A program made the translations under genes and the position numbers. A stretch of 64,000 bases of DNA from Affinundibacterium seohonense (GTDB lineage: Bacteria > Pseudomonadota > Gammaproteobacteria > Burkholderiales > Burkholderiaceae_D), in the NCBI RefSeq assembly GCF_014284305.1, contig NZ_JACOFW010000018.1:1-64000 (forward strand), read 5' to 3'. Of the stretch, positions 53,479 to 56,366 are shown piece by piece; positions within the stretch are counted from its first letter, which is position 1, and each line of letters begins with the position of its first letter. The notes below the pieces were generated by a model that was given only the letters and a program-made list of their open reading frames with translations, was not told where the DNA came from and searched no databases.

Positions 53479-54846
53479 CTAATCTACAGATTTCTGCTTT
53501 TTTACAGTTGCAATTTTTAGTTCGCCCACATCCTGTGCTGTGCGTAAGTGCAGGACATCACCAGTATCAATTTGTTCGACACTGCGGATAAATTGACCGT
53601 CGGCTTGTTGCAAAATTACGTAACCCCGCTCTAAGGTGCGCTGCGGATTGAGCATGTCGAGTTTGTCTTGCAGACTAGCCAAACTGGCCTGATGCAGCTG
53701 TAATCGATGCCGCATGCCGGTGCGCAATTGCATCTGTTTATACTCAAGTTGTCTTTGACGATCTTGGATATTTGGTCGTTTCTGGGTTAGCCTTGTCTCT
53801 AACTGCAACAGCCGATTTTGCGCTGCCTGCAACGGCCTGAGTACGGCAAAGCGCAAACTTTGCGCACATTGATTTATTTGCTGGCGCTTCGATGTTAATG
53901 CGGAACTTGGGCTTTGCAGGCGATGGCTTAGCCAGTCTAGATTTTGCGCTTGGCTATCAAGCTGACGACGCATCTGCCGTTGCATTACATTTTGCCATTG
54001 GTTTAGGTTGGCGATCCAGTCTGTGCGTGGTGTTGCCGCCATTTCTGCCGCTGCAGTTGGCGTTGGCGCGCGTAAATCTGCAACAAAGTCTGCGATAGTG
54101 AAATCCGTCTCATGCCCGACGCCACTGATGATCGGCAATTCGCAATGGGCAATGGTGCGCGCCAGAATCTCTTCATTGAACGCCCACAAATCTTCGATGC
54201 TGCCACCACCACGGCAAACGATCAGCAATTCACATCGGTTGTCAGCATCCGCCTGCGCGACCATTTGTGCAATTTTTGCAGCCGCACCTTCACCCTGTAC
54301 TGGGCAAGGATAAATGATCAACTCAATGTGTGGTGCACGTCTTTGTAAAGCTGTGATGACATCGCGTAAAGCTGCCGCATTCGGACTGGTGATGATGCCT
54401 ATGCGTCTGACAAAACTTGGAATTGGCTTTTTTCGTTCTTGGTCAAATAAACCTTCTGCGGCGAGTTTGGCTTTTAGTTGTAAAAAAGCCTCGTATAAAT
54501 TCCCAACGCCAGCACGCCTGATCGCTTCTACGTTAATTTGATAGTCGCCACGTGGCGCATACAGACCAACTAGCGCACGCACTTCAACTTTGTCGCCTTC
54601 GCGTGGCGTGAAGCTAGCGTATTGCGCTCGACCACGAAACATGACAGCCCTTACTTGTGCAGCGCTATCTTTGAGCGTGAAGTACCAATGTCCAGATGCG
54701 GCGCGGGTGAAATTGGAAATTTCACCAGAAACCCACGTCAATGGGAAGTTTCGTTCCAATAATTGCGCGACAGCTTGGTTTAGGGCCGAAACTGGTATGA
54801 CAGACTCGGATTTTTGCGGGATTTGAGGTGGAAAAGTTGATGCCAT
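53479..54846 (-). CDS. xseA: Exodeoxyribonuclease VII large subunit
   Basis: Catalytic subunit of the single-strand-specific exonuclease VII. The 455 residues have the N-terminal OB fold (SALNQAVAQLLERNFPLTWVSGEISNFTRAASGHWYFTLKD), the catalytic domain with RIGIITSPNAAALRDVI and CRGGGSIEDLWAFNEE, ISGVGHETDFTIADFVADLRAPTPTAAAE, and the C-terminal long coiled coil, ending near LERGYVILQQADG. It is in the common Burkholderiales position upstream of sodB, divergent from exbB. The small subunit gene xseB is not in the window. ATG 54846 is chosen over an in-frame GTG at 54873. Confidence 0.95.
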   Translation of the reverse strand: MASTFPPQIPQKSESVIPVSALNQAVAQLLERNFPLTWVSGEISNFTRAASGHWYFTLKDSAAQVRAVMFRGRAQYASFTPREGDKVEVRALVGLYAPRGDYQINVEAIRRAGVGNLYEAFLQLKAKLAAEGLFDQERKKPIPSFVRRIGIITSPNAAALRDVITALQRRAPHIELIIYPCPVQGEGAAAKIAQMVAQADADNRCELLIVCRGGGSIEDLWAFNEEILARTIAHCELPIISGVGHETDFTIADFVADLRAPTPTAAAEMAATPRTDWIANLNQWQNVMQRQMRRQLDSQAQNLDWLSHRLQSPSSALTSKRQQINQCAQSLRFAVLRPLQAAQNRLLQLETRLTQKRPNIQDRQRQLEYKQMQLRTGMRHRLQLHQASLASLQDKLDMLNPQRTLERGYVILQQADGQFIRSVEQIDTGDVLHLRTAQDVGELKIATVKKQKSVD

Positions 54847-54940
54847 AAGCCTAGTAACAAGAAAGCTGTCCACAGATCGTGAAAAGTAGGCGCAAGCATG
54901 TCATGCGCCTTGCCTCCTGTCAAAAATAATTTAGAAGGTC

Positions 54941-55020
54941 TTTGTAAGTAATTGATTTTTAAGTGTTTAATTACATTAAGTTTTATCTTTAAATCTTTAG
55001 TTAGCAGATTTTGCTACGAA
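54941..55020. other. AT-rich tract next to the DnaA-box cluster
   Basis: A run of mostly A/T sequence (TTTAATTACATTAAG, TTTTATCTTTAAATCTTTAG) immediately left of the first DnaA boxes. It resembles the easily melted element of a replication origin, but this is judged by composition only. Confidence 0.4.
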
Positions 55021-55121
55021 AAATGAAGGCGAGAATAGGAAATTTTTGTGCTTATGCACAAAGTTATCCACAGGAAATTAGATGCCTCGATGAAAAAGTG
55101 CTTGAGTGAAATAAAGTAGGG

Positions 55122-55144
55122 CCCTGCCTTTTTTTGTGGCAGGG
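55122..55144. other. GC-rich hairpin within the DnaA-box region
   Basis: CCCTGCC (55122-55128) pairs with GGCAGGG (55138-55144) around a T-rich 9-base loop. There is no T-run after the stem, so it is not a typical terminator. It lies between the first and second DnaA-box modules. Confidence 0.4.
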
Positions 55145-55188
55145 TAACAATATTCTTTAAAATCATGGGCTTAGCATCATGTGCCCGG

Positions 55189-55418
55189 TTTGTTCACAAA
55201 GATATCCACATTTTGTGTGCAGAACTACGGCTTTATTCACAGCGATTGGTAAATTTGTAGGATATAACTAGGCAAAAATATCATTAAATAGCAATTAGTT
55301 GCTTTTGGTAATGCTTTGCTTAAAATTCTTGCAGGGGTATTTTTTCTATAGTAATCAAAGACTTAAGATGATGTGAAGAGTTTGTTCACAAAGTTCTCCA
55401 CAGTTTGTGTGCAGAACT
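55189..55418. repeat. 38-bp direct repeat, two copies 192 bp apart
   Basis: Copy 1 is 55189-55226 and copy 2 is 55381-55418, matching at 35 of 38 positions. Each opens TTTGTTCACAAAG and ends TTTGTGTGCAGAACT, and each is followed 6-7 bases later by an exact TTATTCACA box. Degenerate relatives lie at 55050-55075 and 55540-55590. They are part of the DnaA-box cluster. Confidence 0.85.
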
Positions 55419-55760
55419 TTTGGACTTATTCACAGTCGTGAAATTTTCAATGATTCGTCTCCAAAATTCGCATTTTTAGGGCCTGCTCAATTTAACAGCT
55501 TGCCTATCATTGTATTTAAAATCAAACACTTAGAATTTAGCCCCAAGGATATCCACAATCTTGCGCACAGATTCTGTGCACAACTTTGACCATATGTTTT
55601 TACCTAGTATTAGTCTTACCTCTATTCATGTGAGCCGACCTGATGAAAAATATTCCTGTGCATCTACTTGCCCAGTGCTTAACAACACGATACATTGCGG
55701 GCTGAGTGTTTATTCGTAGTCGCTACGACTTATTAAGATTTTTCTGGCAAGGAGTTTCAT

Positions 55761-56366
55761 TTGTTCGCAATTATTCAGGCGGCTGGTTGGCCGATTTATT
55801 TTTTGTTGGTGGCATCGATTGTCGCTTTGGCCTTGATTATCGAACGGACGTTGTCATTGAGACGGCAAAGGATCTTGCCTAGGACTCTGCTCGAAGAAGT
55901 GATCAGGGTCTATCAAAGCGGCAAGATCAAACAAGAGGTGATCGATCAGTTGGCGATTAACTCACCTCTTGGTCGCGTGTTGGCAGCTGGCTTGCGCAAC
56001 GTCAATGCGCCACGTGAAGTCATGAAAGAATCGATTGAAGAAGCGGGTAGTGCGGTCGCTCACGAATTAGAAAAATTTCTCACGACGCTGGGGACGATCG
56101 CGTCTTTAGCGCCGTTGATGGGTTTGTTTGGTACGGTCGTCGGTATGATAGAAATTTTCGGTTCGCAAAATGCAGCGGGTGCGAATCCGGCGCAACTAGC
56201 GCATGGTATTTCGGTTGCACTGTATAACACTGGTTTTGGTTTGCTAATTGCAATGCCAGCGATGATTTTCTATCGACATTTTCGTGCCCTCGCTGATGGC
56301 TTCGTGGTTGAGATGGAGCAGCAAGCGGTGAAGTTTGTCGATATCGTTCACAGCACGAGAAAGTAG
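55761..56366 (+). CDS. exbB: ExbB/TolQ-family proton channel protein, second locus
   Basis: A 201-residue motor protein with three helices (about 8-28, 110-135 and 150-172) and the conserved LTTLGTIASLAPLMGLFGTVVGMIEIF core. It starts at TTG 55761, supported by AAGGAG six bases upstream. It lies just before exbD and the lipid A gene lpxK, the usual Burkholderiales order. No tonB accompanies it, so it may drive another energised envelope process or share the TonB at 34005. Confidence 0.93.
   Translation: MFAIIQAAGWPIYFLLVASIVALALIIERTLSLRRQRILPRTLLEEVIRVYQSGKIKQEVIDQLAINSPLGRVLAAGLRNVNAPREVMKESIEEAGSAVAHELEKFLTTLGTIASLAPLMGLFGTVVGMIEIFGSQNAAGANPAQLAHGISVALYNTGFGLLIAMPAMIFYRHFRALADGFVVEMEQQAVKFVDIVHSTRK

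Follow-up and report, generated by a model that had tools for sequence, protein, structure and literature searches.

A probable tandem DnaA-reactivating sequence in the xseA-exbB gap of an Undibacterium-like genome

Why should a dense cluster of DnaA boxes lie far from any dnaA gene? The question is raised by the xseA-exbB intergenic gap of a genome resembling Undibacterium, a gap that falls within the 64-kb stretch of DNA analysed here (the window). A scan with the consensus TTATNCACA places four exact boxes (starts 55052, 55064, 55233 and 55426) and eight with one mismatch (55190, 55202, 55216, 55382, 55394, 55408, 55549 and 55575, those at 55216, 55408 and 55575 on the minus strand) exactly where an earlier note, made from the sequence alone, had put them within 55052-55583. 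Its estimate of one exact box per roughly 30 kb by chance also agrees with the genome, where 158 exact boxes in 4.87 Mb amount to about one per 31 kb. Against 1000 dinucleotide shuffles, the 917-bp gap holds 12 boxes at up to one mismatch (shuffle mean 1.45, largest 7) and four exact boxes (mean 0.07, largest 2), while the Poisson probability of at least four exact boxes in 532 bp is 3.7e-9 per place, or about 3e-5 across the genome. Over the whole window, 6 exact boxes against 2.8 expected and 61 one-mismatch boxes against 70 expected show no marked excess; the surplus is therefore local to the xseA-exbB gap. The array is the densest 600-bp stretch for DnaA boxes in the window, and among the genome matches listed (about 100 of the 158) no other place holds more than two exact boxes within 600 bp. 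Both neighboring genes point away from the cluster, as the note had observed. An RNA gene was set aside, since a search of 54800-55800 against Rfam yields no family at its gathering score. Terminator-like hairpins number three in 54800-55800 compared with 1.0 in shuffles (sd 1.0); those within the array lie at 55118-55130 and 55045-55062, and one overlaps the first DnaA box.

Beyond the earlier note, the boxes keep a fixed spacing and orientation, are accompanied by candidate sites for integration host factor (IHF) and fall into repeat units. A repeat search recovers a 66-nt unit at 55161, 55353 and 55520 with identities of 100, 80 and 61%. Three times over, the unit consists of an IHF-like site, box III (+) 29 bp on, 3 bp, box II (+), 5 bp and box I (-). 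Table 1 lists the features of the array together with its neighbors and one related core elsewhere in the same genome. The AT-rich tract beside the array contains both of the upstream IHF-consensus sites. Most module boxes are one mismatch off consensus, and since box II of module 3 has two mismatches, the window counts as two strict units but as three modules when full boxes are considered. At the strong double box, the head-to-head slot is without a box I (6 mismatches). Elsewhere in the 64-kb window, no three-box core occurs at up to one mismatch. As read from its letters, the locus is a strong double DnaA box with three cores of the type found in DnaA-reactivating sequences (DARS), each with a predicted IHF site, and a further predicted IHF site upstream.

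Table 1. Coordinates of the array, its neighboring genes and the single core of the same genome (window positions unless a contig is named)
Feature	Position	Strand	Details
xseA, exodeoxyribonuclease VII large subunit	53479..54843	(-)	NCBIfam TIGR00237, 502.7 bits
Candidate IHF-consensus site upstream of array	54945..54957	(-)	0 mismatches to WATCAANNNNTTR; -107 from first box
Second candidate IHF site upstream of array	54960-54972		1 mismatch
Strong double DnaA box	55052..55072	(+)	two exact boxes, 3 bp apart
Module 1 IHF-like site	55161..55173	(+)	1 mismatch; 29 bp before box III
Module 1 DARS-type core	55190..55224	(+)	III 55190-55198(+), II 55202-55210(+), I 55216-55224(-)
Extra exact box past module 1	55233..55241	(+)	conservation poor, 60%
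Module 2 IHF-consensus site	55353..55365	(+)	0 mismatches; 29 bp before box III
Module 2 DARS-type core	55382..55416	(+)	III 55382-55390(+), II 55394-55402(+), I 55408-55416(-)
Extra exact box past module 2	55426..55434	(+)	conservation poor, 71%
Module 3 IHF-consensus site	55520..55532	(+)	0 mismatches; 29 bp before box III
Module 3 DARS-type core	55549..55583	(+)	III 55549-55557(+), II 55561-55569(+), I 55575-55583(-)
exbB, ExbB/TolQ-family proton channel	55761..56366	(+)	under curated cut-off of every named subfamily
Single DARS-type core of the same genome	C153:73518-73552		pattern match 73521-73549; L104; priA-hemE; IHF consensus at -97

This composition suggests that the locus is probably a tandem, multi-module DARS that would convert ADP-DnaA to ATP-DnaA. 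The order III(+) -12- II(+) -14- I(-), measured start to start, is common to DARS1 and DARS2 of E. coli MG1655 and to the three modules of the window, each of which has a core of three boxes with box I opposed. Equal spacing and an opposed box I are likewise described for DARS1 and DARS2 in a passage of PMC5742627. No such triplet is present in E. coli oriC or datA, even at two mismatches per box. In the nine E. coli stretches compared, double boxes 3 bp apart were found six times (polA, purH, nrdA, datA, DARS1 and DARS2), and only DARS1 and DARS2 carry box I in the head-to-head slot; at polA, purH, nrdA and datA that slot has 4-7 mismatches. The 3-bp double box was therefore rejected as a DARS mark by itself, and the polA example is identical in its letters to the window double box at 55052-55072. 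Because the double box is not specific to DARS, the DARS claim rests on box I. Part of PMC10380432 treats the head-to-head boxes I and II as essential, and binding at this pair is thought to release ADP according to passages in PMC5742627, PMC10380432 and PMC8682772.

The array resembles E. coli DARS2 in the orientation and spacing of the three-box core, in the presence of further boxes around it, in a mid-arm position and in having candidate IHF sites on the box III side. In DARS2, the IHF-like sites lie at -87 (minus) and -71 (plus), 3 bp apart, whereas on the same side of box III in the window the IHF consensus occurs at -29 in every module and, ahead of the first box, at -107. A section of PMC4245941 describes IBS1-2 of DARS2 as two IHF sites 3 bp apart and reports weaker activity when the IHF sites are moved by 5-10 bp. 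DARS2 is unlike the array in that it has a single core instead of three, is without an IHF site at -29/-30 per module, and lies upstream of mutH rather than between xseA and exbB. The spacing of DARS2 is given as conserved in E. coli-proximal beta- or gamma-proteobacteria in a passage of PMC5742627, and DARS-like sequences in many proteobacteria are mentioned in part of PMC10380432.

Conservation of the boxes in relatives had been proposed as a check, with its absence to count against a role for the cluster; the outcome was the opposite. The best 80 loci from an ExbB search of genome contigs were taken, nine were dropped because xseA was not found in the right place and one because of a 3.4-kb gap, and the remaining 70 with the window make up 71 gaps, all selected for the divergent xseA-exbB arrangement. 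The named genera among the 80 loci are presumably Oxalobacteraceae, save for one Paucimonas metagenome-assembled genome (MAG), which is Burkholderiaceae by taxonomy; several MAGs carry higher names only, and the family placement of Lacisediminimonas comes from a taxonomy look-up. Together the 71 gaps hold 848 boxes against 89 expected, with 70 of the 71 above three times expectation. Box pairs concentrate at opposed orientation with a spacing of 14 (214 pairs in 63 gaps), at tandem orientation with a spacing of 12 (112 pairs in 59 gaps) and at opposed orientation with a spacing of 26 (85 pairs), over a background whose median at spacings 9-60 is 0-1 for each orientation. Strict head-to-head II-I units number 199 and occur in 62 of the 71 gaps; counts per gap range from 0 to 6, with two to six units in 54 gaps, one in 8 and none in 9. 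By genus, Janthinobacterium and Rugamonas have 4-6, Duganella 2-5, Massilia/Pseudoduganella 3-5 and Undibacterium 2-4, while Noviherbaspirillum and a mixed group of other genera have 0-1. The array of genome G013 has 7 strict units. Furthermore, the IHF consensus at up to one mismatch lies at -29/-30 in 169 of the 199 strict units, where the average is 0.7 per offset and strand.

Alignment of eight relatives to the window gives identities of 90% for boxes, 86% for IHF sites and 59% for spacers, a difference between box/IHF positions and spacers reached by none of 660 circular label shifts. The double box is conserved at 97-100%, the boxes of module 3 at 90-100% and the candidate IHF site at 54945..54957 at 85%; the extra boxes at 55233 and 55426 are weakly conserved and may be unimportant. 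Adjacent module spacings fit a period of about 10.7 bp (R 0.64, deduplicated n=46), a value reached by 0 of 2000 jitters, or by 2 of 2000 when the 29 unique spacing values are used. The modules may thus be phased on one face of the helix, but this is suggestive only, as the sequences are related and the statistic is weakened accordingly. The gap of one Oxalobacteraceae MAG (L072, 3848-4000) is 153 bp long with no DnaA box at up to one mismatch, a possible natural loss of the array. At three loci of genus g131 (L286, L287 and L288), the array is split between modules by a stretch of about 0.8-1.9 kb.

The core is also found away from exbB. At up to one mismatch, the three-box pattern is found at the array in all eight Undibacterium genomes and, as one exact core, at a second place; the reversed-pattern control gives 0 in the eight. 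The single core lies between priA and hemE in all five of the eight that were fetched, a check that covered the genomes other than G014, G005 and G026. Besides the core of the own genome (L104), loci from five other Undibacterium genomes (L112, L113, L126, L127 and L161) and from other Burkholderiales show this placement. Four more one-mismatch core matches are scattered in G000 and G030. One of these four, a match to the short pattern at C76:37222-37250 of the own genome, is upstream of dnaA; read as full boxes, its middle box has more than two mismatches. On a wider scale, a scan of 250 Burkholderiales genomes finds the exact core in 140, with no match to the reversed-pattern control, and a class-wide sample of 232 genomes has it in 139, with a single control match. 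Among the matches listed, 15 of 29 Burkholderiales loci adjoin xseA (13 of them also with ExbB), 8 lie at priA-hemE and 6 at neither, and 10 of 28 class-level loci have a PriA match. Within about 1.5 kb on each side of the core, none of the 57 loci has a match to dnaA, dnaN, rnpA or yidC; at these places the core therefore does not mark an origin. The head-to-head II-I pair alone is found in 191 of 195 genomes of one GTDB family, with counts largely doubled as the pair is near-palindromic, and it is less clean, its reversed control matching about 20 of the 195 genomes, mostly once.

Of the 61 cores in these Burkholderiales and class-level loci, 35 have an IHF consensus in minus orientation between -96 and -99, where the average is 0.2 per offset, and the minus-oriented IHF site of E. 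coli DARS2 is about one turn from this -97 site common in the class. Since single cores commonly have IHF at -96 to -99 and DARS2 has it at -87/-71, a lone core whose IHF site is remote looks older, and the arrays, in which a site at -29/-30 has been added, resemble an elaboration within Oxalobacteraceae. DARS1 of E. coli has the same core as the modules, and its closer counterpart is the single priA-hemE core of the window's own genome. They differ in that no IHF consensus at up to one mismatch occurs in the DARS1 stretch scanned, whereas the priA-hemE core has one at -97; in addition, DARS1 lies at 66% of the half-chromosome, whereas in six genomes, G091 included, the single core lies at 2-15% from dnaA. 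At another place than xseA-exbB in G091 (L289, C1:4200500-4207100), a frame that by eye resembles a UvrD/Rep-type helicase is flanked by a pair of DARS-type cores; these are 2.5 kb apart, and both have an IHF site at -97.

Turning to map position, dnaA of the window's own genome is on contig C76 and not on the contig of the array. In the seven genomes with a one-contig main chromosome, array and dnaA are 0.96-1.71 Mb apart; measured from dnaA towards the antipode, the array is at 42-63% of the half-chromosome in all seven (G014 57, G005 42, G013 57, G015 56, G026 53, G360 63 and G326 62%). The seven leave aside G091, whose cores are away from xseA-exbB, and G691 (L067), where the main contig falls short of the full genome. 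By comparison, E. coli DARS2 is mid-arm at 41% of the half-chromosome as computed from coordinates. With dnaA taken as the origin, strand reading places the array along the direction of the fork in all seven. Collectively these results favor the earlier proposal of a DnaA-binding regulatory locus far from dnaA, as predicted from its sequence.

The earlier note had also drawn a parallel with E. coli datA, which would make the locus a site of IHF-dependent hydrolysis of DnaA-bound ATP or of plain DnaA titration by many boxes. The parallel comes near, as both are intergenic DnaA boxes with IHF sites and a 3-bp double box; datA has its IHF site between boxes, the array has IHF sites between modules and thus between successive box groups, and the first element of the array (55052-55072) has a double box but no box I, as in datA and polA. 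Some titration would also follow from any box cluster. Nevertheless, the architecture is that of a DARS, whose effect on DnaA is the reverse. E. coli datA, with one IHF site, is without the head-to-head II-I pair at up to two mismatches, whereas the array has such cores and the pair is the commonest spacing in the 71 gaps. Titration, for its part, needs no fixed orientation or spacing. Moreover, datA is near oriC as stated in a passage of PMC10380432, and part of PMC12371093 speaks of box enrichment near oriC, whereas the array is mid-arm. A datA-like or titrating element is therefore an unlikely reading.

A DnaA-controlled transcription switch for exbB and/or xseA, likewise raised in the earlier note, is less probable still. 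The array does sit between two divergent genes, although the 71 gaps were chosen for that arrangement, and a section of PMC11317965 has DnaA regulating genes in E. coli. On the other hand, the same core beside priA-hemE and other genes is not bound to exbB, promoter-like matches are at shuffle level (3 versus 2.9), and the gene-regulatory double boxes of E. coli polA, purH and nrdA have no box I. An effect on transcription may persist as a side effect.

The idea of a main or secondary replication origin finds some encouragement in the AT-rich tract adjoining the boxes and in the region upstream of dnaA. At up to one mismatch, the 1000 bp upstream of the own-genome dnaA (C76; L103 8496-9495), the expected place of oriC, hold just 4 boxes and those of four other Undibacterium genomes 1-3, with one exact minus box at -179 to -250 in all five; even with two mismatches allowed per box, those 1000 bp contain no three-box triplet in G000, G014, G005, G015 or G013. 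GC skew is positive in 32 of 32 window bins and in 18 of 19 bins after the window. Coarse samples of G014 look scrambled: skew is -0.144 at 2.26 Mb and +0.119 at 2.50 Mb, so that the sign switches close to the array at 2.20 Mb, but in a denser set covering 2.05-2.29 Mb all 11 samples, to the left and right of the array, are negative. Samples of 10 kb around the array are positive on the array strand in 4 of 4 for G015, G360 and G326, and less clearly so in G026 (3 of 4), while G005 gives small, mixed values. In G013, the coarse skew reaches its cumulative minimum at 2.62 Mb and has mixed signs between that point and dnaA (2.95 Mb); the array is at 4.13 Mb. With no sign change in the window or at the arrays of G014, G015, G360 and G326, and with its distance from dnaA, an origin at the array was rejected on skew and position and is scarcely credible.

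As for protein partners, genes for IhfA, IhfB and Hda score above curated cut-offs in the own genome, and a frame of 86 codons with an HTH_8 match and about the length of Fis is a candidate for that protein. Its DnaA shares 250 identical positions with E. coli DnaA (468 and 467 aa) and retains the equivalents of Asp269, Arg285 and Leu290, while Arg227 is replaced by His; what Asp269 and Leu290 do at DARS is described in a passage of PMC5742627. The sequence itself gives the geometry, the spacing of the IHF sites, the conservation, the map position and the partner genes; DnaA binding, IHF binding, ADP release and an effect on timing at the array are inferred from work on E. coli. IHF would bend the DNA at each module, and ADP-DnaA would bind in tandem at boxes III and II and head-to-head at box I, with box III and the IHF bend supporting the II-I pair. 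Contact between AAA+ domains, head-to-head on boxes II and I, could then loosen ADP, and apo-DnaA would depart and take up ATP, so that more ATP-DnaA becomes available to start replication at the remote oriC. With several modules on one helix face, activity or cooperativity may exceed that of a single core. Against the DARS reading stand the mismatched module boxes, the -29/-30 IHF position unlike that of DARS2, the datA-like placing of IHF sites between modules, His in place of Arg227, the nine gaps that have no strict unit and the short-pattern match upstream of dnaA. Most likely the array helps to time chromosome replication rather than acting as an origin.

The DARS as such is already known, reportedly from a founding paper, Fujimitsu 2009; as far as the literature was searched, the tandem modules, the IHF site in each and the clustering of spacings at about 10.7 bp represent new anatomy. 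No tandem array with an IHF site per module appeared in the literature searched, although an earlier table of beta-proteobacterial cores is possible, for instance in the founding paper. Among the PMC papers searched, none combined DARS2, datA and Betaproteobacteria, and none combined DnaA box, xseA and exbB.

A broader picture can be put forward tentatively, at somewhat under even chances. In Oxalobacteraceae, a phased array of up to six or seven modules on one helix face would assemble cooperatively, and the number of modules would set the gain of the exchange of ADP for ATP. A second, single-core DARS would be present nearer oriC at priA-hemE, and together the two would make up an old arrangement of two sites in Burkholderiales; the E. 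coli pair departs from it in neighbors and module number. The DARS studies in the literature consulted concern E. coli and close relatives. Since the exact three-box pattern is very selective, candidate DARS loci may be mappable in genomes generally. Finally, the natural series of zero to six strict units among relatives offers ready material for relating reactivation strength and map position to the timing of initiation.
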